DNA of 22,232 bases from positions 1 to 22,232 of IMG/VR virus record IMGVR_UViG_3300030419_004971; one strand, written 5' to 3'. The number at the start of each line of letters is the position of its first letter. Positions within the stretch are counted from its first letter, which is position 1. The notes under the pieces are model-generated. The model made no database searches and was not told where the DNA came from. It saw only the letters and a program-made list of their open reading frames with translations. Below, piece by piece: positions 6,615-22,232 of the stretch. The DNA comes from a virus. A program made the translations under genes and the position numbers.

Positions 6615-8192
6615 TTGTCAGATTTAAAAATGCGTTTTGATTCAGAAACTTCTTTGAATCAAAAAATTATTGACGGCGTTAATGTGCTTGCCGATAACGT
6701 CGCTTCTACATTAGGTCCAAAGGGGCGTAATGTAATATTACAAGAAAAAGGAAAGAGCCCAATCATTACAAAGGATGGGGTTACCGTGGCTCAGTTTGTT
6801 CATTTGGATGATCCATTCATGAACGCTGGTGTACAAATTATTAAACAAGCAGCAACACAAACAAATAATATTGCCGGTGATGGTACAACGACCTCGACAG
6901 TCTTAGCACGCGCTATATTGACGCAGGCTCAAAAATACCTCACTGCTGGGGCTAGCCCGATTGAACTCAAGCGAGGGATTGACAAGGCTTCTGAGGCCAT
7001 TATTGATAATTTGAGAGAACTCGCTACGCCAATTACTAGCGAGGAAGATATCGCCCATGTTGCCACCATCTCTGCCAATAATGATAAGAGCATTGGCAAC
7101 TTAATTGCTATGGCGGTTGATCGCGTTGGTAAAGATGGTGCCATCACAATTGAAGAGGCCCGTTCTTCTGAGACTTCTCTTGACATTACAGAGGGTTTTA
7201 TTTTTGATTCGGGCTACCGCGCCACCGCTTTCATCACTGATGAAAGACGAGGGTTAATGCGGTACGATGAGCCGCTTATTATGGTGACCGATCACACAAT
7301 CTCGACTGTCGAACAAATTCTGCCCATCTTGGAAGTTATTGCAAGAGAGGGAAGGCCATTTGTTTTGGTCGCAGAAGAGATTGAAAACCAAGCACTTGCC
7401 GCCATGATCATGAATGCGATGCGTGGGACACTAAAGGTCGCCGCTATCAAGGCGCCTCGCTACGGTGAAGAGCGAAGAAGTATTTTGCAGGATTTGGCCA
7501 TTGCCGTTAACGCTACATTTGTTTCGCGTGAGTCTGGTATGAAGGCGCATGAAACTAAGTTGGAGGATCTTGGGTCTGCTAAGGTTATTGAATGTACAAA
7601 GACTTCCACAACCGTTGTGGGTGGAAATGCTAATTACGAATTGGTTGATCAACGCATCGAAACTTTAAAGGAGCAACTCAAAACAACTGAATCCATACGC
7701 GACTGTGAAAAAATTCAAGAAAGAATTACACGTTTAGCTAGCGGAATTGCAGTTATCCGAGTTGGTGCGGCAACCGAGGTTGAAATGGTAGAGAAAAAGC
7801 ACAGAATTGAAGATGCCTTAGAAGCTGTTCGATCTGCACAGGTCGAAGGTATTGTGCCGGGTGGTGGCGTGGCGCTAATTCGTGCCAGTAAAGAATTGAC
7901 CATTGATGCAGATAACGACGATCAGGCTATGGGTGCGAGCATTGTGCAGCATGCTGTTCGATCTCCACTAAGACAAATGGCTTTGAACGCTGGCTTGTCG
8001 CCTGATCTCATTGAATCGTTAGTCGAGAGTCTAAATGAAAATGAGGGTTATTGTTTTTACAATGGCGAACAATGCGATATGATCAAAGCAGGAATTGTTG
8101 ATCCAGTGAAGGTTACTGGCACAGCATTGTCGAACGCTGTATCGGTTGCTGGAACTTTAATTACCACCAATCACGCCATTATTGGTGTGTGA
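6615..8192 (+). CDS. groEL: chaperonin GroEL (60-kDa class I)
   Basis: ATP-driven folding chamber subunit, 525 residues starting at TTG 6615 (GAGGTG at 6605-6610; the ATG at 6630 is too far from it and would cut the conserved N-terminus). Class I hallmarks: LGPKGRNV (33-40), the ATP motif GDGTTT (88-93, Asp89), RGIDKA (120-125), KAPRYGEERR (279-288), GAATEVEM (384-391) and ED at 399-400 (E. coli catalytic Asp398 equivalent) followed by GGGVAL (416-421). It ends right after VSVAGTLITTNHAIIGV, so the flexible Gly-Gly-Met tail is absent. No groES is in the window; host GroES, or a co-chaperonin elsewhere, would have to serve. It probably folds phage capsid or other late proteins. Confidence 0.97.
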   Translation: MSDLKMRFDSETSLNQKIIDGVNVLADNVASTLGPKGRNVILQEKGKSPIITKDGVTVAQFVHLDDPFMNAGVQIIKQAATQTNNIAGDGTTTSTVLARAILTQAQKYLTAGASPIELKRGIDKASEAIIDNLRELATPITSEEDIAHVATISANNDKSIGNLIAMAVDRVGKDGAITIEEARSSETSLDITEGFIFDSGYRATAFITDERRGLMRYDEPLIMVTDHTISTVEQILPILEVIAREGRPFVLVAEEIENQALAAMIMNAMRGTLKVAAIKAPRYGEERRSILQDLAIAVNATFVSRESGMKAHETKLEDLGSAKVIECTKTSTTVVGGNANYELVDQRIETLKEQLKTTESIRDCEKIQERITRLASGIAVIRVGAATEVEMVEKKHRIEDALEAVRSAQVEGIVPGGGVALIRASKELTIDADNDDQAMGASIVQHAVRSPLRQMALNAGLSPDLIESLVESLNENEGYCFYNGEQCDMIKAGIVDPVKVTGTALSNAVSVAGTLITTNHAIIGV

Positions 8193-10889: not shown

Positions 10890-11687
10890 ATGCAACATGT
10901 TATGGGCTATAAATCCGCTCTGATTTTGTGGTTTGTTACCATATTCATGCTCTTAGGCTGCACACCTGTCCCGTCTCACTCCACAGCACAAGACGGCGTT
11001 GACATTGATACTGAGGGGCTTGAAGTTAATATTTCTGAAAACTCAGAATCAAGCGCAAATGTGTCGCGACAACACAGACGCACAGTTAAAATGTCTAAAG
11101 ATGCCTCTGTTGTTGTTTGGGGCTCAGTTGGTGGCAGAAGGGTTGTTAGTGGCACTGGAACTTATTTTGAGCACAAAGGCTATCACATAGTTATAACAGC
11201 TTATCATGTTTATGATGATCCGCGAATCGAGGGAGCTTTAGTGCAAAGTCAATCGGGCGAAATGGTTGCCGGAACAATAATCTATTCCAATGCTGATCGA
11301 GATATTTGTGTATTGTTGGTGCCGCAAATGCGTACTGTTGATGCTGCGCGACTGAACCCAATAAGACCTTCGCAAGCTGATGAGGGACTCAGTGTGTTGT
11401 ACACCGGGTTTCCTGGCCATCATAGCTACAATGAACCGCTAACTTTCAATGGCACGCTGGCTGGGATTAGCGATTCAAGTGGGTTCATAATTATGCAATC
11501 TTATGCGTGGATGGGTTCGTCTGGGTCGGGTGTTTTCGACACAAGAGGTCGATATGTCGGTGTTTTAGTTGCAATTGATGTCGAAAGAGGCATTTATGGT
11601 CCACAATTACAGGAAAATGTTGTGTATGTATCCCCCATATGGGCTGTTGGAGTTGAAGAAATAGAGGGGATATTGGAGGGAAGGTAA
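10890..11687 (+). CDS. secreted lipoprotein trypsin-like serine protease
   Basis: 265 residues, ATG 10890 with GGAGG nine bases upstream. The N-terminal signal peptide (about 7-23, hydrophobic core ALILWFVTIFMLL) ends in the lipobox LLGC with Cys24, so the protein should be lipid-anchored outside the inner membrane. After a Ser/Glu-rich linker (25-65) comes a chymotrypsin-fold domain: His106 in VITAYHVYD, Asp138 in NADRDICVLLV, and Ser213 in GSSGSGVFD, a complete triad. Such HtrA-like or trypsin-like proteases lacking a PDZ domain are unusual phage cargo. It is coupled to the VWA lipoprotein that follows immediately. It could act in envelope modification, superinfection exclusion or lysis; none is shown by the sequence. 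Confidence 0.88.
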   Translation: MQHVMGYKSALILWFVTIFMLLGCTPVPSHSTAQDGVDIDTEGLEVNISENSESSANVSRQHRRTVKMSKDASVVVWGSVGGRRVVSGTGTYFEHKGYHIVITAYHVYDDPRIEGALVQSQSGEMVAGTIIYSNADRDICVLLVPQMRTVDAARLNPIRPSQADEGLSVLYTGFPGHHSYNEPLTFNGTLAGISDSSGFIIMQSYAWMGSSGSGVFDTRGRYVGVLVAIDVERGIYGPQLQENVVYVSPIWAVGVEEIEGILEGR

Positions 11688-12731
11688 ATGTTGTGGTGCG
11701 CCACGAAAAGAATTATTGCAATTTTTATTTCAATGCTTTTTGTAACTGGCTGCACGACAAATATGGAATATTATATCGTTGGTTCGGGAACCGAAACAGT
11801 GGTCGAGACGGTTTATGAAACTGTTTACGAGGAAATAGAAATTCCAGTCTATATCGAAGTGGAGGTTCCCGCTAACCCTGGTGAGATTTGGGTTGATTCC
11901 TTTATTCAACCTCAGTCAGTTGATGGCGTAGACATTCTTTGGGTTATTGATACATCTGGCTCGATGAACGCCTATGACGAAGAACTGTTGGCAGGAATAC
12001 AGGCGATGTTACTAGCACTCCCAGAAAGCGGCTGGCGTTTAGCCATGTTGTCTAATGACCCAGGAGAGGCATCTATTGAATCTCAGTTTCCATTGGTTCC
12101 TGGCGATGATATTTTAGATGCTGAAAATATGTATCACAACATGGGAAGAGGCCATCGTGAGGAGGGGTTTGATGCGGCATATGAGTATTTGATGAATAAT
12201 ACTTATGCTCAAACATGGCTTCGATATGACGCTGCTTTGTTGGTGGTTTTTGTATCAGACGAAGAAGAGCAAAGCGATGATCATTTTCCTACAGTTGATG
12301 GATTTATTTCATGGTATCAAGGACTTAGAGGTGGCTCAACTTATTTATCAAGTGTTGTTAACTTAGACCCTTCTGAATCATTATGTAATCCGAGTACCTA
12401 CAATGCTGGATACAGATATATGCAAGCAACTAATCACTTCATGGGTCAAATCATCGATATTTGCTCTGAGGATTGGAGTGCTGGCGTGGTTGATGCAGCA
12501 AGAAGACTGGAGCCACATGAACACATTCAGCTTACACATGAGCCAATTGAAGAATCTATAAGAGTTTTTATAAATGGTGCATTAAATTATGATTGGACGT
12601 ATTCGTCCTCCGATAATACTATTTACTTTACAATAATACCAGGCGGAAATGATTTGGTGGAAGTTGGATACCGGTATTTTCCGGTCGATACTGGTGCTGC
12701 TGGCGATACTGGTATAGATACTGGCGCGTAG
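11688..12731 (+). CDS. lipoprotein with von Willebrand factor A domain
   Basis: 347 residues; ATG follows the protease stop directly, with GGAGGG eight bases upstream. The signal peptide (about 7-21) ends in VTGC, Cys22 being the probable lipidation site. A Glu/Val/Tyr repeat linker (33-60, ETVYETVYEE) leads to a VWA domain with the metal-ion-dependent adhesion motif DTSGS (88-92) and LLVVFVSDEEE (184-194). A beta domain follows (SIRVFINGALNYDWTYSSSD), and the tail is DTGAAGDTGIDTGA. This architecture, including the tail rich in Asp-Thr-Gly, recalls VWA lipoproteins of Myxococcota and Bdellovibrionota-type bacteria, so transfer from a host is possible (inference). It probably binds a protein ligand at the cell surface. 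Confidence 0.88.
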   Translation: MLWCATKRIIAIFISMLFVTGCTTNMEYYIVGSGTETVVETVYETVYEEIEIPVYIEVEVPANPGEIWVDSFIQPQSVDGVDILWVIDTSGSMNAYDEELLAGIQAMLLALPESGWRLAMLSNDPGEASIESQFPLVPGDDILDAENMYHNMGRGHREEGFDAAYEYLMNNTYAQTWLRYDAALLVVFVSDEEEQSDDHFPTVDGFISWYQGLRGGSTYLSSVVNLDPSESLCNPSTYNAGYRYMQATNHFMGQIIDICSEDWSAGVVDAARRLEPHEHIQLTHEPIEESIRVFINGALNYDWTYSSSDNTIYFTIIPGGNDLVEVGYRYFPVDTGAAGDTGIDTGA

Positions 12732-15349: not shown

Positions 15350-15920
15350 ACATATTGAAATGGTTGACCAAAATTCGCAGGCGACCGCAAAAGAAATTGA
15401 AAGCCTGTGTGAGCGCATGCGTGGCAGATTTAGGGTGTGCGGCTTTGATAACGTATGGCAGAACTATAAGGCGCGTGGAAAACACAACGAGACAAAGCGA
15501 AAGCAGAGCAGGGCACTTGTTAGACAATACGTCGATATGATTCTTGAAACTCAAGACTATCGCTGCACCCACTGGCTGCATGTTGAGGATGATGAGCTAA
15601 ACGGAGTTTGGAACCGTCCAGGCGGCAACTATTGTAACTGGAAGATTACAAATATTATTTATGAAATTGACCATGTTCATCCGACAAATGCAGGTGGTAA
15701 GGACTGTCTGACCAATTATCAATTTCTATCATCTAACGCGAATCAATTTGTAAAGTGTTCGCTGACCTACGATGATTTGCTAAAGAGGGTTGATTTGTCT
15801 GACCGGCTCAAAGAAAGAATTTTGCACGTGCTCGACCAGAGACAAAAACTTTTTGCATCTAAGAGGTGGCAGATTTTTATGGATACGCTCAATAAATATG
15901 AGGAAACATTTAATGATTAA
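15330..15920 (+). CDS. HNH-type endonuclease-like protein
   Basis: 196 residues from ATG 15330 (GGGGGA just upstream, tight spacing); an in-frame ATG at 15294 has no ribosome site. The core YEIDHVHPTNAGG (111-123), LTNYQFLSSNANQF (127-140) and K142 follow the HNH pattern: Asp-His, a metal-binding Asn at 129, and N-x(n)-K at the end. A helical, basic N-terminus (KARGKHNETKRKQSRALVRQ) could bind DNA. Free-standing HNH proteins in phages are often homing enzymes or packaging nickases; which this is cannot be told. It ends just as the first KVGDLV gene starts. Confidence 0.75.
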   Translation: MKVTLNEHIEMVDQNSQATAKEIESLCERMRGRFRVCGFDNVWQNYKARGKHNETKRKQSRALVRQYVDMILETQDYRCTHWLHVEDDELNGVWNRPGGNYCNWKITNIIYEIDHVHPTNAGGKDCLTNYQFLSSNANQFVKCSLTYDDLLKRVDLSDRLKERILHVLDQRQKLFASKRWQIFMDTLNKYEETFND

Positions 15921-16354: not shown

Positions 16355-16553
16355 AGAGGGCGATTTGGTCGCGCTTAAAGAGTTTTATTACCTGTCACCA
16401 GAAAAAAGACACAAGTCGTTAGCCATTGTCATTGAAGCTCAGTGGAAACAATGCAGGATTCGCACGATTTACAATGGGATGACATGGTGGGTTCAAAACA
16501 ATGAATTAAAACTTCTTTCTGGTGGTTCAAAGTCGATAAGCAAAAAAGTTTAA
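16344..16553 (+). CDS. GDLV-type SH3-like protein B (divergent)
   Basis: 69 residues, ATG 16344 six bases after GGAGG. Begins MILEEGDLVALKEFYY and has strands LAIVIEAQW and CRIRTIYNGMTWWVQNNELK, the family layout with a diverged signature. The stop codon TAA (16551-16553) opens the AT-rich block in front of promoter copy 3. Confidence 0.65.
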   Translation: MILEEGDLVALKEFYYLSPEKRHKSLAIVIEAQWKQCRIRTIYNGMTWWVQNNELKLLSGGSKSISKKV

Positions 16554-16559
16554 TTTTTT

Positions 16560-16587
16560 TTGAATAAATCTCAAGGCTGCACGTCTA
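16560..16587 (+). promoter_or_regulatory. phage promoter-like element, copy 3
   Basis: TTGAAT (16560-16565), 16 bases, CGTCTA (16582-16587). A T-rich tract lies upstream. A dyad TGCAC (16578-16582), GTCTATT, GTGCA (16590-16594) encloses the downstream box. Confidence 0.8.
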
Positions 16588-16608
16588 TTGTGCATCGGAG
16601 TTAAAAAG

Positions 16609-17309: not shown

Positions 17310-17475
17310 TTACGAGGCAGTTGGAATTGCAGAAGGGTTTGTCGATTGCGATGATGAAGAGAGAATCATCGAGGCATGGCAGCATCTAATCGACACCGGC
17401 TTGGCCTGGACGCTGCAAGGTGCGTTTGGTCGGATGGCGAAATCCCTGATTGATGCTGGTGTTTGCACGCCTTGA
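17302..17475 (+). CDS. small conserved phage protein (AWQxLIDTGLAW type)
   Basis: 57 residues. The segment AWQHLIDTGLAWTLQGAFGR followed by MAKSLIDAGVC is a pattern I remember from very many phages, where a short helical protein of this type is conserved but has no known function. ATG 17302 has GGAG ten bases upstream. The TGA at 17473-17475 leads straight into the AT-rich block of promoter copy 4. Confidence 0.75.
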   Translation: MDDYEAVGIAEGFVDCDDEERIIEAWQHLIDTGLAWTLQGAFGRMAKSLIDAGVCTP

Positions 17476-17493
17476 AAAATAATTTAATTTTTT

Positions 17494-17521
17494 TTGAATA
17501 TTCGCGGAACTCCTGCGTCTA
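17494..17521 (+). promoter_or_regulatory. phage promoter-like element, copy 4
   Basis: TTGAAT (17494-17499), 16 bases, CGTCTA (17516-17521). The AT-rich block AAATAATTTAATTTTTT lies just upstream, as in copies 5 and 7. The downstream box runs into GTCTAACGGGTGTCTAA, a direct repeat of GTCTAA with 11-base period, then CAAAGGAGA, the ribosome site. Confidence 0.85.
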
Positions 17522-17550
17522 ACGGGTGTCTAAGCAAAGGAGAGACATAC

Positions 17551-17925
17551 ATGGGATATCGCTCACAAGTCGTTCTCGTCGTCGGTAAAGAAATCATGCC
17601 CCAGTTCATGGTTACGATGGCAAAGTCGCCAGAGGCCCGCAAGCTCTGCTGGGGGGAAGCTGACCAGACGGTTAAAGATTATGATGGCGAGGGAAATTTT
17701 CTTTTCTCTTGGAACTGTATCAAGTGGTACGACTCTTTTGAGGAGATTCGCGCTATTGAAGATTTTTTGGACTGGGCATGCAGCGAGTCAATTGAAGTCG
17801 ATGGCAAGACCCGTGACGGTGATGAGTTTATCAAGTTTCTCCGCACAGGCGAAGAGTTAGACGACAATGAGCAACGCGGTTGGGGATTTGATGATGTTTG
17901 GATTACTCGGAGAATTGAATTTTGA
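17551..17925 (+). CDS. MGYRS-type conserved phage protein
   Basis: 124 residues from ATG 17551, with AAAGGAGAG upstream and promoter copy 4 in front; the earlier open frame covers the promoter and is rejected. It begins MGYRSQVVLVVGKE, a start shared by many small phage proteins I have seen, then has an acidic middle (WYDSFEEIRAIEDFLDWACS) and RGWGFDDVWITRRIEF at the end. Function unknown. Its TGA overlaps the next ATG by one base. Confidence 0.7.
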   Translation: MGYRSQVVLVVGKEIMPQFMVTMAKSPEARKLCWGEADQTVKDYDGEGNFLFSWNCIKWYDSFEEIRAIEDFLDWACSESIEVDGKTRDGDEFIKFLRTGEELDDNEQRGWGFDDVWITRRIEF

Positions 17926-18101
17926 TGAAAGTCGGTGATTTGGTGCGACACATATATTCAGAGCGTGGAATGATGGGAATCATTGTAGAAATGAAATCGT
18001 GGGCGCATACTGAAAGCAAAACTCCCTTTGTCTTATGGGATGACGGTAGAATAGCAAAGATCCAACGGGGTCTTATTGAGGTGGTTAGTGCAAGTCGGTG
18101 A
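17925..18101 (+). CDS. KVGDLV-family SH3-like protein D
   Basis: 58 residues: MKVGDLVRHIYSERGMMG, IIVEMKSW, FVLWDDGRIAKIQ and the end IEVVSASR. First of a run of four back-to-back copies (D to G). Its last four codons, AGTGCAAGTCGG with stop TGA, are also read, shifted by one base, as the start of copy E (GTG CAA GTC GGT GAT). Confidence 0.75.
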   Translation: MKVGDLVRHIYSERGMMGIIVEMKSWAHTESKTPFVLWDDGRIAKIQRGLIEVVSASR

Positions 18102-18279
18102 TTTGGTGAAGTTTGAAACCAAGTCGTGGGTGATGCAGCGCAATTATGCGAACCCTGGCGTGGTTTTAGGAGTGAGGATGTCGCAGCTTGGCAATAGGCG
18201 CATGCGGGTGATGTGGTCTGATGGAAGTATCACCTTTGAGCACGGTTGTTATCTGGAGGTCGTCAGTGAAGGTCGGTGA
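18088..18279 (+). CDS. KVGDLV-family SH3-like protein E
   Basis: 63 residues from GTG 18088: MQVGDLVKFETKSW, PGVVLGVRMSQLG, MRVMWSDGSITF and the end LEVVSEGR. GAGGTGG precedes the start. The frame opens slightly earlier but only across the joint. The 14-base overlap with D and the same-size overlap with F mark it as a cassette. Confidence 0.75.
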   Translation: MQVGDLVKFETKSWVMQRNYANPGVVLGVRMSQLGNRRMRVMWSDGSITFEHGCYLEVVSEGR

Positions 18280-18427
18280 TTTAGTTAGAGTTAAGTATGA
18301 TGGCACGACAGGCATAATTGCCAGAAAAGAAGTGACTCGCGTCCCCGTCCCAAGTATATGGATTTACTTGCATACTGGAGAGAGTTTCAAACCCGAATAT
18401 CTGGAGGTTATAAATGAAAGTCGGTGA
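18266..18427 (+). CDS. KVGDLV-family SH3-like protein F
   Basis: 53 residues from GTG 18266, with GGAGG seven to eight bases before. Sequence: KVGDLVRVKYDGTTGIIARK, SIWIYLHTGESFK, LEVINESR. It is the close paralogue of protein Q (20767), sharing IYLHTGESFK and LEVINESR also at DNA level (GGATTTACTTGCA). Confidence 0.75.
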   Translation: MKVGDLVRVKYDGTTGIIARKEVTRVPVPSIWIYLHTGESFKPEYLEVINESR

Positions 18428-18602
18428 CCTCGTTTATGCAAAGCAGGATTTGAGAAATGGCTTTCGATGCATCGGACTTATTCTGGAGTGTAGGGCCGCC
18501 ACCCTTGGACGCTTGGCAGAGTACAAAATTTTATGGAATTCTGAGAGCAACCCTATCGGCTGGTGGAGGATTAGCCAGCTACTACCTGCCATTGAAAAAT
18601 AA
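18414..18602 (+). CDS. KVGDLV-family SH3-like protein G
   Basis: 62 residues, ATG 18414 after GGAGG. MKVGDLVYAKQDLRNGFRCI, GLILECRAATLG, YKILWNSE, GWWRISQLLPAIEK. It ends the first run; its end differs from the joint because its stop TAA is part of the AT-rich block before promoter copy 5, as in protein U. Confidence 0.7.
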   Translation: MKVGDLVYAKQDLRNGFRCIGLILECRAATLGRLAEYKILWNSESNPIGWWRISQLLPAIEK

Positions 18603-18613
18603 TTTAATTTTCT

Positions 18614-18641
18614 TTGAATATTTTCAATTCTGGCGCGTCTA
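18614..18641 (+). promoter_or_regulatory. phage promoter-like element, copy 5
   Basis: TTGAAT (18614-18619), 16 bases, CGTCTA (18636-18641), with upstream AAATAATTTAATTTTCTT and downstream AACGGGTGTGCAACAAAGGG, nearly the same flanks as copies 4 and 7. Confidence 0.85.
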
Positions 18642-18666
18642 ACGGGTGTGCAACAAAGGGAGAGAT

Positions 18667-18849
18667 ATGATTAAGGTTGGCGATTTGGTAAGGATAGCGG
18701 AGCCCTTCATGAGCTATCAGGGTCAAGTGGGTATCGTTACAAAGATTCCGCTGACCGAGCGTGGCATGTGGGCTATCCTGCTCACTTCCGGCGAACTTAT
18801 CGCCACAAGACTCATGTCACGTCTGGAGGTTATCAGTGCAAATCGGTGA
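18667..18849 (+). CDS. KVGDLV-family SH3-like protein H
   Basis: 60 residues, ATG 18667 after AAAGGGAGAG; first gene of the copy-5 operon. MIKVGDLVRIAEPFMSYQGQ, VGIVTKIPLTERG, WAILLTSGELIA, LEVISANR. Close paralogue of J (19002): both share GQ(V/T)GIVTK and LLTSGELI. Confidence 0.75.
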   Translation: MIKVGDLVRIAEPFMSYQGQVGIVTKIPLTERGMWAILLTSGELIATRLMSRLEVISANR

Positions 18850-19015
18850 TTTGGTAAGGATGAAATGCATTAAGACTGCCGTCGCTTTCGGACCCGCTGC
18901 GATAGTGATAAGGAGAGGCCCATCGACTAAGTTCGTGAGAGTTTGGAACAGCGCGGAGCAGCAGCATGAATACTGGGATATTCGTTACATAGAGGTACTC
19001 AATGAAAGTCGGTGA
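18836..19015 (+). CDS. KVGDLV-family SH3-like protein I
   Basis: 59 residues from GTG 18836, after GGAGG. MQIGDLVRMKCIKTAVAFGP, AAIVIRRGPSTKFVRVWNSA, and the end IEVLNESR. Overlaps H and J by 14 bases each through the joint sequence. Confidence 0.75.
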   Translation: MQIGDLVRMKCIKTAVAFGPAAIVIRRGPSTKFVRVWNSAEQQHEYWDIRYIEVLNESR

Positions 19016-19178
19016 TTTGGTAAAGATGAGAGGTCCGTCCACGTGGCACGGTCAGACAGGAATCGTCACAAAGGTCCGTCGAAGCACAGGTGCGCCATGG
19101 GTTGTCCTGCTCACTTCTGGTGAATTGATTGAGACATACAGCAGACACAACATGGTGGTGATAAGTGAAAGTCGGTGA
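19002..19178 (+). CDS. KVGDLV-family SH3-like protein J
   Basis: 58 residues, ATG 19002 after AGAGG. MKVGDLVKMRGPSTWHGQTG, IVTKVRRSTG, WVVLLTSGELIE, VVISESR. Paralogue of H with strong DNA identity around the CTGCTCACTTC(T/C)GG stretch, so H and J probably arose by recent duplication. Confidence 0.75.
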   Translation: MKVGDLVKMRGPSTWHGQTGIVTKVRRSTGAPWVVLLTSGELIETYSRHNMVVISESR

Positions 19179-19347
19179 CATGATTAAAATGAAGAACCGG
19201 CGCGAGCTTCGCAAAGGCGATGCATGGGGTATCGTCCTTGAGATTCTTGGACCCATGGCCGGTGGCACGGGAAACAGAGTTAAAATTGCATGGCAAGGTA
19301 AAAACATCGGCACCATGCGAACTGATATTTTGGAGATAGTAAAATGA
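19165..19347 (+). CDS. KVGDLV-family SH3-like protein K
   Basis: 60 residues from GTG 19165. MKVGDMIKMKNRRELRKGDA, WGIVLEILGPMAGG, RVKIAWQGKN, ILEIVK. It ends the second run: the tail is not the joint ESR, and the stop overlaps the ATG of the zinc-ribbon gene. Confidence 0.75.
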   Translation: MKVGDMIKMKNRRELRKGDAWGIVLEILGPMAGGTGNRVKIAWQGKNIGTMRTDILEIVK

Positions 19348-19697
19348 TTAAAATTTGTAAGCACTGCAACGTCGAATTCGATACACGTTCGACCGCAAAG
19401 CGACAGGCAGGCGGGAAAATTAACGAGTGCCCGTCATGTGTCGAAGAACTCGGCACGGAGACTGCTGTAAAATATTTGGGCCTGTCTGCTGGTGACGGCA
19501 AAGCATCTGCTCTTTCGATTGTCGCCTTTGAAAATGACGAAGACCGCGAGGCATATTCGTCAGCATGGAAAGCGGTCACCGGATTCAACAAGGGTAAATC
19601 CTGTCATTTGTCAGGAACAAACACTAACATCGGTGGACGACCGATGCGCCATGTCACCTATGTCGGTGCCAATGGAAACCATAAGGGGAAAGGATGA
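19344..19697 (+). CDS. zinc-ribbon-type small protein
   Basis: 117 residues, ATG 19344 with GGAG nearby. CKHC at residues 5-8 and CPSC in INECPSCVEE (about 31-34) form a four-cysteine zinc knuckle as in many short phage nucleic-acid-binding proteins. The rest is basic/Gly-rich near the end (TNTNIGGRPMRHVTYVGANG). Function not recognised. ATGA overlap with both neighbours. Confidence 0.7.
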   Translation: MIKICKHCNVEFDTRSTAKRQAGGKINECPSCVEELGTETAVKYLGLSAGDGKASALSIVAFENDEDREAYSSAWKAVTGFNKGKSCHLSGTNTNIGGRPMRHVTYVGANGNHKGKG

Positions 19698-19768
19698 AAA
19701 GAATTAAACGAGGATTGAAATATACTTTCAAAATTCTTTTATGTGGGTATCCACAAGTAGACTTTTAA
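19694..19768 (+). CDS. 24-residue basic/hydrophobic peptide
   Basis: ATG 19694 overlaps the zinc-ribbon stop and is preceded by GGGGAAAGG. The product MKRIKRGLKYTFKILLCGYP plus QVDF is a cationic amphipathic peptide. It could be a real micro-protein or chance; the ribosome site and ATGA overlap support translation. Confidence 0.4.
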   Translation: MKRIKRGLKYTFKILLCGYPQVDF

Positions 19769-19791
19769 TTAAACAAAAAAGGAGAAACAAA

Positions 19792-19977
19792 ATGTTTAAT
19801 ATTGGAGAAATCGTTATCGACAGCAAGACCGGAGGCATGGGACTGGTGACTGACAGGCACTCGGATTCAAGTGTCGAACTCGACCTGACCTTGCTCGACG
19901 GACGGCAGACGGTAGTCACACGCGATACGGCAGACCTTGAAAGGACTGGCCGGTCCATGCGCTCCCGGCTTCGCTAA
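19792..19977 (+). CDS. small SH3-like protein N
   Basis: 61 residues, ATG 19792 after AAAAAGGAG. MFNIGEIVIDSKTGGMGLVT, SSVELDLTLLDGRQTVV and a basic tail (RTGRSMRSRLR). It has the length and strand pattern of the KVGDLV proteins with a diverged signature (NIGEIV), and it is not joined by the repeat. Confidence 0.65.
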   Translation: MFNIGEIVIDSKTGGMGLVTDRHSDSSVELDLTLLDGRQTVVTRDTADLERTGRSMRSRLR

Positions 19978-19994
19978 AAATAATTCAAAATAAT

Positions 19995-20022
19995 TTGAAT
20001 AAATCTCGCTCTGGCTCGTCCA
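19995..20022 (+). promoter_or_regulatory. phage promoter-like element, copy 6
   Basis: TTGAAT (19995-20000), 16 bases, CGTCCA (20017-20022), one change in the downstream box. Located in an 83-base gap. Confidence 0.75.
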
Positions 20023-20035
20023 ATCTATGATTGGA
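20019..20035 (+). other. perfect inverted repeat over the promoter's downstream box
   Basis: TCCAATC (20019-20025), TAT, GATTGGA (20029-20035): a perfect 7-bp dyad overlapping the downstream box of promoter copy 6 and the predicted transcription start. It could be an operator or a 5' hairpin in the message. Confidence 0.55.
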
Positions 20036-20060
20036 TGGCCAATGAGCCAGGAGATATAGC

Positions 20061-20420
20061 ATGAAAATCGAACTGACCGAGACTGAAATCACTCACATCA
20101 TGGACGCGCTGGATGCTCGCATCGAGGATTTGACAGGCTGCCTCGCTACGGTAGGCGACCCCGAAATCGAAGACGAGATTGCAGAACTGACAGAGTTGTG
20201 CATGGATTTGTTTGAAGCGTTGGGTCGCAAGGATGACGACTGGGGTCGCGAGAACGACGCTGTGCCCGATGCTGCTGTGGAATTCATCCAGGCAGGCATC
20301 GACGCCCGCGAAGAGGCCAAGGCTACCTCACGGGCCGCTCAGCGCCGGGAACAGGCATTGAGCGACCGTCTTATGGGTGGAACGACTGATACCCTCGCAA
20401 ATGACCCCATCGACTGGTAG
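20061..20420 (+). CDS. hypothetical acidic helical protein
   Basis: 119 residues, ATG 20061 with AGGAG upstream. Strongly acidic N-terminal half (LTETEITHIMDALDARIEDL, IEDEIAELTELCMDLFEAL) and a charged Ala/Arg-rich C-terminal half. Predicted all-helical. Unrecognised; acidic phage proteins sometimes mimic DNA or block host proteins, but nothing specific supports that here. Confidence 0.65.
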   Translation: MKIELTETEITHIMDALDARIEDLTGCLATVGDPEIEDEIAELTELCMDLFEALGRKDDDWGRENDAVPDAAVEFIQAGIDAREEAKATSRAAQRREQALSDRLMGGTTDTLANDPIDW

Positions 20421-20428
20421 GCGAGAGC

Positions 20429-20770
20429 ATGAATATTTGGATTTTATCTGGAAGTTATGAAGGCGAGCAATTTGCAAGCTCACACTTGACCGAGAAGGGC
20501 GCTATCCTCGCGGCTATCGGTGACGTGCTCCAGCTTCTCGGTGTCGAAGATGAAGAGACAGCCAAAGAAGTTGTCGGTCATCGTAATTTCATGCCAGATA
20601 TCAGCGATGATGAGCGACCTGACGTTGAGCCTCCCGAATGGGATATGGAAAAGATGAAGGGCATGGTTCGTAATGAACTGTGGGGCGTCTTTGGCGAATG
20701 GCTCGAACTAACATGGGATAATAGCCATGGCTACAATATCGAAGTGATTAAAACACAGGTGCAAGCATGA
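20429..20770 (+). CDS. conserved small phage protein (SGSYEGE type)
   Basis: 113 residues, start WILSGSYEGEQFASSHLTEK, then GAILAAIGDVLQLLG, and near the end LWGVFGEWLELTWD. I recall similar proteins in other marine phages with no known function. Weak ribosome site (AGGCGAG). Its stop overlaps the ATG of KVGDLV copy Q, and its last codons GTGCAAGCATGA partly resemble the joint. Confidence 0.65.
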   Translation: MNIWILSGSYEGEQFASSHLTEKGAILAAIGDVLQLLGVEDEETAKEVVGHRNFMPDISDDERPDVEPPEWDMEKMKGMVRNELWGVFGEWLELTWDNSHGYNIEVIKTQVQA

Positions 20771-20916
20771 AAGTCGGTGATTTGGTAAAAGTTATTTATG
20801 ATGGAACGGTGGGGCTTATCGTGCGTATCGAAGACGGTGCTCGTCCATGGATTTACTTGCACACTGGCGAGTCATTCAAGGCTAACAAGCTGGAGGTAAT
20901 CAATGAGAGTCGGTGA
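20767..20916 (+). CDS. KVGDLV-family SH3-like protein Q
   Basis: 49 residues, the shortest copy: MKVGDLVKVIYDGTVGLIVR, PWIYLHTGESFK, LEVINESR. Paralogue of F, from which it differs mainly by a shorter middle loop. Its joint with R overlaps by 14 bases. Confidence 0.75.
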   Translation: MKVGDLVKVIYDGTVGLIVRIEDGARPWIYLHTGESFKANKLEVINESR

Positions 20917-21097
20917 CCTTGTGAAAATTAAACGAGCATCCATCGGTGTGCCTTACGATAGCCTTGCTATGGTCATTCAAGACTTTGTAGTAGGCACGAG
21001 CAGTATCGGATATTGGAATATTCGATTCGTCGGTGGAAAACTAAACGGCAAGACCCGCCGGTATCTGACGCGAGACTTGGAGAGGATAAGCCCATGA
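20903..21097 (+). CDS. KVGDLV-family SH3-like protein R
   Basis: 64 residues, ATG 20903 after GGAGG. MRVGDLVKIKRASIGVPYDS, LAMVIQDFVV, YWNIRFVGGK and the end LERISP. Its end is not the joint tail; the stop overlaps the ATG of a membrane peptide. Confidence 0.75.
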   Translation: MRVGDLVKIKRASIGVPYDSLAMVIQDFVVGTSSIGYWNIRFVGGKLNGKTRRYLTRDLERISP

Positions 21098-21210
21098 TTG
21101 GATGGCTAATGATTGCCTGCCTCGTCGGGGGTATGACATGGTTTTCTTGTTTTGCTGCCGTGGTGCTGGTTCGCTGGTTGCGGCGGGACATTGACAATGA
21201 AAGTCGGTGA
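21094..21210 (+). CDS. 38-residue membrane peptide ending in the cassette tail
   Basis: ATG 21094 overlaps R's stop, with GGAGAGG upstream. A single hydrophobic segment (MIGWLMIACLVGGMTWFSCF and AAVVLVRWLRR) is followed by DIDNESR. NESR is the tail seen on KVGDLV proteins F, I and Q, here because the same DNA joint starts protein T. An unrelated protein therefore carries the tail for purely structural DNA reasons. Confidence 0.6.
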   Translation: MIGWLMIACLVGGMTWFSCFAAVVLVRWLRRDIDNESR

Positions 21211-21397
21211 TTTGGTGAGACGAACGCGCTACAGAAGCCCTGACGGTCGCATAACTGCACGGTCTGGAAAAGAGGCAGGTGTCGGGCTAATCGTTAACAA
21301 AACGAAATTTGGCTATAAAATTAAATGGCAAGATGATGGTGAAATAGGAGTTACCTGGGTATCAGAAACTGCTATTGAAATAGTGAGTGAAGCATGA
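21197..21397 (+). CDS. KVGDLV-family SH3-like protein T
   Basis: 66 residues: MKVGDLVRRTRYRSPDGRIT, a basic insert, VGLIVNKTKFGYKIKWQDDG and the end IEIVSEA. Typical layout with a longer first loop. Stop overlaps U's ATG. Confidence 0.75.
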   Translation: MKVGDLVRRTRYRSPDGRITARSGKEAGVGLIVNKTKFGYKIKWQDDGEIGVTWVSETAIEIVSEA

Positions 21398-21618
21398 AAT
21401 ATCCAGTTGGAACCTTGCTTAAATGCGATTCGTGGCGTATGCCTGCGTGGTACAAGCATGGGTATTGGATAATTCTTGAATTAAATGTTTTAGGTGGAGG
21501 GAACGCAAAAATAAAACAAATTGGTGGACCGCATGATAAGCACGGATGGTCAACCATGAATATGTCGTATGATGGAATTTATGAACACTTTCAATTACTT
21601 AGCTTAATTGAGAAATAA
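21394..21618 (+). CDS. SH3-like protein U (PVGTLLK type)
   Basis: 74 residues: MKYPVGTLLKCDSWRMPAWY, WIILELNVLGG, KIKQIGGPHDKHGWSTMNM, FQLLSLIEK. It is nearer to the C-terminal domain of protein V (21688) than to the KVGDLV copies: both have KYP(V/A)G and HGW(S/T). Its stop lies in the AT-rich block before promoter copy 7. Confidence 0.65.
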   Translation: MKYPVGTLLKCDSWRMPAWYKHGYWIILELNVLGGGNAKIKQIGGPHDKHGWSTMNMSYDGIYEHFQLLSLIEK

Positions 21619-21629
21619 TTTAATTTTCT

Positions 21630-21657
21630 TTGAATATTTTTGAATCTCAGGCGTCTA
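21630..21657 (+). promoter_or_regulatory. phage promoter-like element, copy 7
   Basis: TTGAAT (21630-21635), 16 bases, CGTCTA (21652-21657), upstream AAATAATTTAATTTTCTT as in copy 5, downstream GTCTAAGTGGATGTCTAA (direct repeat with 12-base period) and CAAAGGGGA. Confidence 0.85.
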
Positions 21658-21687
21658 AGTGGATGTCTAAACAAAGGGGACGCATAT

Positions 21688-22179
21688 ATGAAAGTTTCAG
21701 CCGCAATCAAGAAGACCCGCGCATATTTCAAGAAGCATGGAGTCGATATCGAAATTGATGAGCCCGGTGAGTTTGGGTGGAAGTGGACATTCACCCACAA
21801 CGGTCGTGTCGGCTCTTTTGGAGCTAATGGTGTGCATGCTACCGACCCTAACGTGGGCGATGCTGATGCTTGCCTGTTTCATACTCGTGGAGTTAATGAC
21901 CATAGTTGCAGCTATACCGATTATCACGCTGGTTCATATCGCGATAATCTGACGCAGGTGCTCCACAGCCTTCTGCCTCCACCTCCAAAGTATCCGGCTG
22001 GCTCTCTTGTCCGAGGCAAGGACAATAAGCGGGCGACCCGTCATGGATTCGCAGGCAAGGTCGGTTTGGTGGTGGAAGCTGCCGCTGGCTCTTATGTCAA
22101 AGTGGCATGGAACGGCGAACCAAAACCGCGCCATGGCTGGACTTCCATTTCACACCGCGATGTCGAGCGCGTGAGCTAA
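21688..22179 (+). CDS. two-domain protein V: unknown N-terminal domain fused to SH3-like domain
   Basis: 163 residues from ATG 21688 (GGGGA seven bases upstream); the earlier open frame crosses the promoter and is rejected. Residues 1-93: KKTRAYFKKHGVDIEI, GWKWTFTHNGRVGSFGANG, DADACLFHTRGVNDHSCS, DYHAGSY, a compact domain I do not recognise by name although I recall it in other marine phages. A PPPPKYP linker (about 94-100) leads to AGSLVRGKDNKRATRHGFAG, KVGLVVEAAAGSYVKVAWNG, HGWTSI, a complete SH3-like domain related to protein U. The fusion links the small barrel family to a larger protein. Confidence 0.7.
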   Translation: MKVSAAIKKTRAYFKKHGVDIEIDEPGEFGWKWTFTHNGRVGSFGANGVHATDPNVGDADACLFHTRGVNDHSCSYTDYHAGSYRDNLTQVLHSLLPPPPKYPAGSLVRGKDNKRATRHGFAGKVGLVVEAAAGSYVKVAWNGEPKPRHGWTSISHRDVERVS

Positions 22180-22195
22180 AATAATTTATTTTTAT

Positions 22196-22223
22196 TTGAA
22201 TATTTCTGAAGTTCAGGCGTCTA
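22196..22223 (+). promoter_or_regulatory. phage promoter-like element, copy 8
   Basis: TTGAAT (22196-22201), 16 bases, CGTCTA (22218-22223), followed by the start of the conserved leader (AACGGGTGTC) where the window ends. It predicts another gene or operon just beyond the window. Confidence 0.8.
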
Positions 22224-22232
22224 ACGGGTGTC

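Follow-up and report, generated by a model that had tools for sequence, protein, structure and literature searches.

Cassettes and joints in the window

We analysed positions 1 to 22,232 of the IMG/VR virus record IMGVR_UViG_3300030419_004971, a single strand of 22,232 nucleotides (nt) that we call the window. The subject here is a set of tiny genes whose products begin with the signature VGD or a close variant; we refer to them as VGD genes or cassettes. At eight of their starts (18088, 18266, 18414, 18836, 19002, 19165, 20903 and 21197), the window translation gives a 14-nt overlap with the upstream gene. These joints share the bases (A/G)TGxAxxTCGGTGA, which in one frame open the next gene as MKVGD, MQVGD, MQIGD or MRVGD and in another supply the upstream gene with its final residues (NESR, SESR, SEGR, SASR or close variants) and its stop. 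The sequence CTGGAGGT, or a near variant, precedes these bases and is at once the ribosome site (GGAGGT or nearly so) and the L-E-V codons of the upstream gene. The original prediction for this DNA had described eight junctions with a constant 14-base overlap and a ribosome site inside, and the translation bears it out. The features of the locus are listed below.

17551..17925, + strand: leading gene (MGYRSQVVLVVGKE...), which heads arrays in several relatives
17925..18101, + strand: cassette B (MKVGDLVRHIYSERGMMG...), first array gene; 1-nt overlap with the leading gene
18088..18279, + strand: cassette C (VQVGDLVKFETKSW...); 14-nt joint
18266..18427, + strand: cassette D (VKVGDLVRVKYDGTTG...); 14-nt joint
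18266..18285, + strand: example of a start block (GTGAAGGTCGGTGATTTAGT), with the start codon and the stops GTGA (frame of the 4-nt class) and GGTGA (frame of the 14-nt class)
18414..18602, + strand: cassette E (MKVGDLVYAKQDL...); 14-nt joint
18595..18666, + strand: promoter-like or 5' leader repeat (AAATAATTTAATTTTCTTTGAATATTT...GCGTCTAACGGGTGT), its putative promoter role suggested by its position
18667..18849, + strand: cassette F (MIKVGDLVRIAEPF...), first gene 3' of the promoter-like repeat; no overlap
18836..19015, + strand: cassette G (VQIGDLVRMKCIK...); 14-nt joint
19002..19178, + strand: cassette H (MKVGDLVKMRGPST...), a paralogue of F; 14-nt joint
19165..19347, + strand: cassette I (VKVGDMIKMKNRR...); 14-nt joint at its start and, at its end, a 4-nt ATGA overlap with an unrelated gene
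20767..20916, + strand: cassette J (MKVGDLVKVIYDGTVG...); 4-nt ATGA overlap with an unrelated gene at 20429-20770
20903..21097, + strand: cassette K (MRVGDLVKIKRASIG...); 14-nt joint
21094..21210, + strand: membrane peptide of 38 amino acids (aa), with an NESR-stop tail from the start block of the next cassette
21197..21397, + strand: cassette L (MKVGDLVRRTRYRS...); 14-nt joint with the membrane peptide

VGD starts outside the 14-nt class overlap the preceding gene by 1 nt (17925), by 4 nt through ATGA (20767) or not at all (17103, 18667); cassette F has GGC as its glycine codon and thus lacks the stop of the 14-nt class. Cassettes D and J are close paralogues, 79% identical over a common 76-nt 3' part. 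The VGD genes had been predicted to form one array from 17925 to 21397. The genes are there, but they form two runs (17925-19347 and 20767-21397) that unrelated genes separate, and the first run contains a promoter-like repeat; more VGD-like genes start outside this interval, at 15913, 16344, 17103 and 21394. The prediction had also pointed out that the membrane peptide ends in NESR and had taken this as a sign that joints are interchangeable. The tail is indeed present, because the start block of the following cassette is read in another frame. It loses its weight as evidence, since any upstream gene in that frame must read such a tail from the next start.

The start block and the cassette proteins across viral contigs

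Loci for comparison were selected by the joint pattern, which in its strict form has at least 120 matches in viral contigs. Within about 110 viral contigs, an exact 14-nt overlap is found at 490 of the 778 VGD genes that have an upstream neighbour, versus 90 of the 1,884 remaining genes in those loci (Fisher p well under 1e-100, for genes that are not fully independent); overlaps of 4 nt account for 119 of the 778. Although the pattern served to select the loci, most of the joints counted are not those it had matched: 342 14-nt joints of standard spacing depart from it. The start block was matched in 25/25 viral records that are long or closely related, always on a single strand and up to 22 times per record under the strict form, whereas a reversed-pattern control matched 0/25. 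The longest run comprises nine consecutive joints (contig L039). Cassettes themselves are highly diverse: some 1,000 genes form 737 clusters at 60% identity, 569 of them singletons, and the sub-family of cassette K has close relatives in about a dozen other loci.

A typical start block, the first 20 bases of a cassette, reads RTGAAAGTCGGTGATTTGGT and contains off-frame stops at RTGA (4-nt overlap) and GGTGA (14-nt overlap). Because a stop is present in both off-frames, the block can follow almost any gene. Both stops lie within 20 nt in 758 of 956 VGD genes, compared with 670 of 2,560 genes of other kinds in these loci. The best direct proof that the tail of a gene belongs to the start of the next comes from contigs L070 and L083, where one and the same gene ends in NENR before an MKTGD cassette (L070) and in NESR before an MKVGD cassette (L083). 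An earlier candidate explanation, in which the LEVINESR tail is a conserved peptide with a function of its own, was rejected on these grounds.

Codon usage within the block departs strongly from background. The fourth codon is GGT in every 14-nt joint because the stop of this class requires it; yet 197 of 265 VGD genes (74%) that lack this overlap also keep GGT, compared with 30% in the vicinity of other gene starts. Val3 is encoded by GTC in 73% of unselected 14-nt joints and in 61% (105/171) of VGD genes without overlap, against a background of 18-21%. Such biases are consistent with dual coding, with earlier passage of the cassettes through joints, or with both. GTT at Val3, which introduces a Trp into the upstream tail, occurs at 1 of 254 overlapping joints as opposed to 23 of 171 positions elsewhere; its near-absence from overlapping joints suggests selection against Trp in the upstream protein's tail. 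Upstream of the start, variation tracks the wobble positions of the upstream gene, and constraint on this side is thus mainly that of the protein and the ribosome site. Homogenisation of joints within a phage is a weak effect, with Val3 codon agreement of 67% within and 57% between loci, a difference reached by 5 of 2,000 permutations.

An AlphaFold model of cassette C shows a five-stranded SH3-like barrel with a mean predicted local distance difference test score (pLDDT) of 83 and strands at residues 6-9, 24-31, 37-43, 48-52 and 56-60. Its structural matches include KOW, PWWP and Tudor domains, PsaE, PetP, YorP and R67 DHFR, with Z up to 8.9, many tied and none standing out. A profile of 78 cassettes matches the KOW domain of NusG (E 6e-4) and, more weakly, the PWWP domain of DNMT3B, uL24 and the KOW domain of Spt5; no strong match to a Pfam family was found for the cassettes. 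The single-sequence model of cassette J is poor (pLDDT 64) and uninformative, leaving C as the sole well-modelled cassette. The barrel fold that had been predicted is thus supported by modelling of this one cassette and by the profile matches, which argue for small SH3-like barrels of KOW, Tudor or PWWP type. Given their small size, extreme variability and promoter-like leaders, the cassette products most likely serve during infection as accessory proteins with variable binding targets in the host; the fold itself shows no function.

Cassette turnover in related viruses

Two relatives permit a direct comparison with the window: G001 is 99.1% identical over 16,561 base pairs (bp) and G002 about 80% identical overall. 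Between conserved flanks, the cassettes run B-C-D-E in the window, C-X-Y-E in G001 and Z-B-U-Y-C-E in G002, so that C comes before Y in G001 and after it in G002. A copy of B, 89% identical in DNA, is the second cassette of G002; copies of C occupy the first position in G001 (82%) and the fifth in G002 (71%). Copies of E are 93.5% (G001) and 99% (G002, over the part compared) identical, with a different upstream cassette in each.

A single event is fully resolved in the near-isogenic contigs L019 and L017, which are 99.55% identical over 8,388 bp and 100% over 2,609 bp of flanks and differ in one 176-nt cassette present only in L017. The two starts in question share exactly 20 nt, ATGAAAGTCGGTGATTTGGT, and 0 nt to the left of it, and in L019 the sequence left of one L017 start continues directly into the sequence right of the other. 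An overlap of the 4-nt class is present at one of these two joints in L017, while the product in L019 is of the 14-nt class. This change of class shows that exchange works through the start block and not through the longer joint, and that the number of lost bases is not bound to any frame. The original prediction had placed the exchange at the whole joint; exchange at the joint holds, but the unit is the 20-nt block, which recombines at 4-nt overlaps as well.

Other pairs show further changes. L083 and L070 are 98.6% identical over 3,559 bp, after which their cassettes are reordered; of L060 and L193, one virus carries a run of three extra cassettes, including a tandem duplicate, which is present in L193; and L018 and L058, from different samples, share six cassettes at 100%.

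Breakpoints concentrate in the joints. For homology blocks of 75-90% identity and at least 120 bp, 204 of 254 of the 5' block ends lie within -25 to +10 of the nearest VGD start, against 15.6% of random positions, and 157 of 218 of the 3' ends lie within 0 to +30, against about 13%. Enrichment of 5' ends is approximately five-fold at VGD starts and 2.6-fold at other gene starts. As alignments run through the shared block, these breakpoints are resolved to no better than the block length. Among clean insertion or deletion breakpoints, 24 of 45 distinct cases fall in joints, and joints account for 4% of the total sequence, or 24% when array sequence alone is counted; breakpoint counts are not fully independent. 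The original prediction had reasoned from the joints alone that cassettes are shuffled there. Comparison of cassette order and number in close phage genomes agrees with it, in that order, number and identity differ between near-identical viruses, and neither a fixed order nor unrelated folds, the outcomes it had named as contradicting it, occurred.

The wider setting of the arrays is that of large phages. RecA is encoded in 23/23 large records of 130-293 kilobases (kb), and the T4-type capsid protein Gp23 in 21 of these 23 array-bearing records. On contig G028 (also L135), the family of a 532-aa window protein occurs together with Gp23 and start blocks, for which reason the window, a contig fragment on which gp23 was not sought, is most likely part of a large T4-like marine phage. 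Searches of annotated phages returned nothing useful for the whole window or the 532-aa protein, and no cultured relative; cassette C gave one marginal, chance-like match in an RNA phage. The strict joint pattern also occurs in five contigs of bacterial genome bins (L197, L198, L199, L200 and L201), assigned to Deltaproteobacteria, Flavobacteriales, Acidiferrobacteraceae and a WOR-3 chromosome (CP070664). These are probably viral contigs within bins, and the assignments may hint at hosts. A cassette family of the form VIRK...AES.MEVISESR is common to L193, L197 and L198.

In the window, G001, G002, L009, L029, L060, L193 and L099, the leading gene (MGYRS(E/Q)VVLVVGKE) or a similar-looking gene stands at the head of the arrays or accompanies them. 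The window copy has no meaningful Pfam or PHROG match and, used as a query, found nothing useful among annotated phages and no relatives among viral contigs. Six similar promoter-like or 5' leaders, all on the + strand, lie at 16541-16596, 17475-17530, 18595-18650, 19976-20023, 21611-21666 and 22177-22232; each is laid out as an AT-rich stretch, TTTGAATA, about 18 nt, GTCTAA or similar and a ribosome site, and most precede a gene block. In G001, the equivalent of the 18595 leader is joined directly to the equivalent of the gene at 19344, and the leaders may therefore be a second class of shuffling site. The product of the gene at 21688-22179 resembles the VGD proteins towards its C-terminus (YPAGSLVRG...VGLVVEA...VKVAWNGE...VERVS), apparently as a fusion of the cassette barrel with a further domain; in L060, the gene at 1401 starts similarly and lies in the same neighbourhood. 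Elsewhere, the window encodes an IMP dehydrogenase-like protein (667-1689) and a full-length GroEL (6615-8192), with PHROG E values of 3e-100 and 6e-143. At 10890-12731, a trypsin-like protease whose leader is of the lipoprotein type lies next to a second lipoprotein, which by eye resembles a VWA-domain protein; such cargo is unusual for a tailed phage. Neither transfer RNA genes nor Rfam matches were found.

Proposed recombination at start blocks and comparison with known systems

We consider it very likely that the locus is a gene-cassette array of a large T4-like marine phage, shuffled via shared start blocks. Each cassette is one gene for an SH3-like barrel of 50-70 residues. Its first 20 bases play a triple role, starting the gene, encoding the first strand (VGDLV) and stopping both other frames (ATGA, GGTGA), while the upstream gene supplies the ribosome site within the codons of its last strand (LEV). 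The sequences show this anatomy directly, as they do the turnover and reordering of cassettes and one crossover inside a block. In the proposed mechanism, recombination between any two blocks, within or between genomes, could then delete, add or swap whole genes; because every cassette has a start block, one working stop and one working start would remain whatever the length removed. Identical blocks most likely pair during recombination or replication. RecA, present in all of the large records, makes homologous recombination possible, and the crossover is probably of this ordinary kind, by the phage's own RecA-type enzyme and not by replication slippage. Searches of the large records for RecT and Erf gave no match; other annealing proteins were not searched for.

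Several observations weigh against shuffling through the blocks. Of the 45 clean breakpoints, 21 lie away from VGD starts, and 18667-19338 is missing from G001 as well, where the break falls at a promoter-like leader. Mosaicism extends to the other genes in these loci, and VGD cassettes lose their neighbours only about two-fold more often: conservation of neighbours is 14% for VGD genes against 27-31% for others at 75-90% identity, and 48% against 80-92% at 90-99.9%. (A first control for this comparison overstated the contrast, as many control genes came from conserved structural loci; the two-fold figure is from the repeat with the same loci.) Selection for intact genes alone would also leave the surviving breakpoints at gene boundaries, and all relatives are metagenome contigs.

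The last point raises the question of assembly errors, which we regard as an improbable source of the differences between relatives. Short repeats are a known source of chimeric contigs, and all sequences here are metagenome assemblies; however, the final word size of common assemblers exceeds 20 nt, the length of the shared exact repeat. Moreover, the L018/L058 pair carries identical cassettes in different samples, and the versions of a given cassette in the three relatives are 1-30% divergent, so they cannot be reads of one virus. A rival with more substance, which we nevertheless think unlikely, is that the joints are conserved only for protein (VGDLV in the first strand, LEV in the last) and for ribosome binding, and that tandem duplication and illegitimate recombination followed by selection for intact genes produced the arrays, with shared DNA playing no part. 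It would account for the wobble-position variation 5' of the start and for the high mosaicism of all genes in these regions, and the literature explains most phage mosaics by illegitimate recombination and selection (PMC3233612, PMC3029335). It sits poorly with the L017/L019 crossover, placed inside the exact 20-nt identity and nowhere else, with the stronger enrichment of block ends at VGD starts than at other starts, with Val3 and Gly4 codons far from background even without overlap, and with a cassette E that is 99% identical beside an unrelated neighbour.

If shared DNA does direct the exchange, the enzymology may differ from that proposed. Replication slippage or single-strand annealing between direct repeats of 20-30 nt, in place of RecA-type recombination, is conceivable, though we do not favour it: the only event resolved in full gained or lost 176 nt between direct repeats of 20 nt, and L193 holds a tandem duplicate, whereas reordering and the import of cassettes absent from a relative need exchange between molecules, and the large array-bearing viruses have RecA. 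Least probable of all is an integron-like, site-specific system with the joint as its recombination site. Orderly whole-gene cassettes with a common junction would suit it, but no match to tyrosine (PF00589) or serine recombinase families was found in 25 array-bearing records, which may be incomplete, five joints taken as single-stranded DNA folded no better than shuffled sequence, in a comparison without an attC model, and there was no Rfam match. Beyond block-mediated shuffling itself, we raise tentatively the idea that selection has made the start block a self-propagating site of recombination, a coding 'plug' into which any upstream gene can run in either off-frame, and an integrase-free analogue of the integron that diversifies small host-interacting proteins. 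Its identity might then be kept across a wide marine virus pool because it enables trade in single-gene cassettes.

Whether phage mosaicism arises through shared boundary sequences or through random joining and selection is a long-standing question, and boundaries are usually invisible at mosaic joints (PMC3233612, PMC3029335). The roughly 500 distinct joints in about 110 viral contigs offer boundaries that are visible, short, coding and repeated, and that allow breakpoint position, homology length and frame to be tested directly. They also provide a simple rule, in which a start block with both off-frame stops lets a gene array tolerate insertion or deletion of any unit, and they suggest that uncultured T4-like viruses hold several hundred small barrel proteins with no annotated family. 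No description of such arrays was found in the open-access literature searched, which leaves out most subscription journals.

Among the known systems that come close is the boundary-sequence model, in which short sequences common to gene junctions let homologous recombination reassort whole genes (PMC3233612, PMC3029335). As with the boundary sequences of lambdoid phages, a short sequence stands at many junctions, and here mosaic breakpoints fall in it. The block of the present arrays differs in lying inside the coding sequence of both genes, as part of one protein family, in being repeated many times per genome and in carrying a start together with both off-frame stops. Promoter early stem-loops (PeSLs) of T4-type phages are likewise repeated elements at junctions of variable genes for which modular shuffling was proposed (PMC4503421). 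To that extent they resemble the joints in element, phage context and position, but a PeSL is given there as a promoter with a stem-loop, whereas the joints code in two frames and show no significant fold. The promoter-like leaders of the window, at 18595 and elsewhere, may be the PeSL-like element of this phage. Rearrangement in mycobacteriophage Island3, where an extra small gene at gp67/gp68 matches its neighbour over the last 18 residues, a likeness explained by recombination between gene-end repeats of about 50 bp (PMC3029335), is a single isolated event, in contrast to a standing array with a universal junction. The T4-related Campylobacter group II phages CP21 and CP220 have repeat regions linked with module rearrangement (PMC4546147); these are long and lie between large modules, whereas a coding start block separates single genes here. 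Integrons share with our arrays the single-gene cassettes that are gained, lost and reordered, but no integrase was found in the 25 array-bearing records and no attC-like fold in the five joints, the junction is coding, and every cassette brings a start of its own. The array thus works in the manner of boundary-sequence mosaicism and of PeSLs, yet is neither a PeSL nor, with no integrase found, an integron, and its boundary is itself coding sequence.

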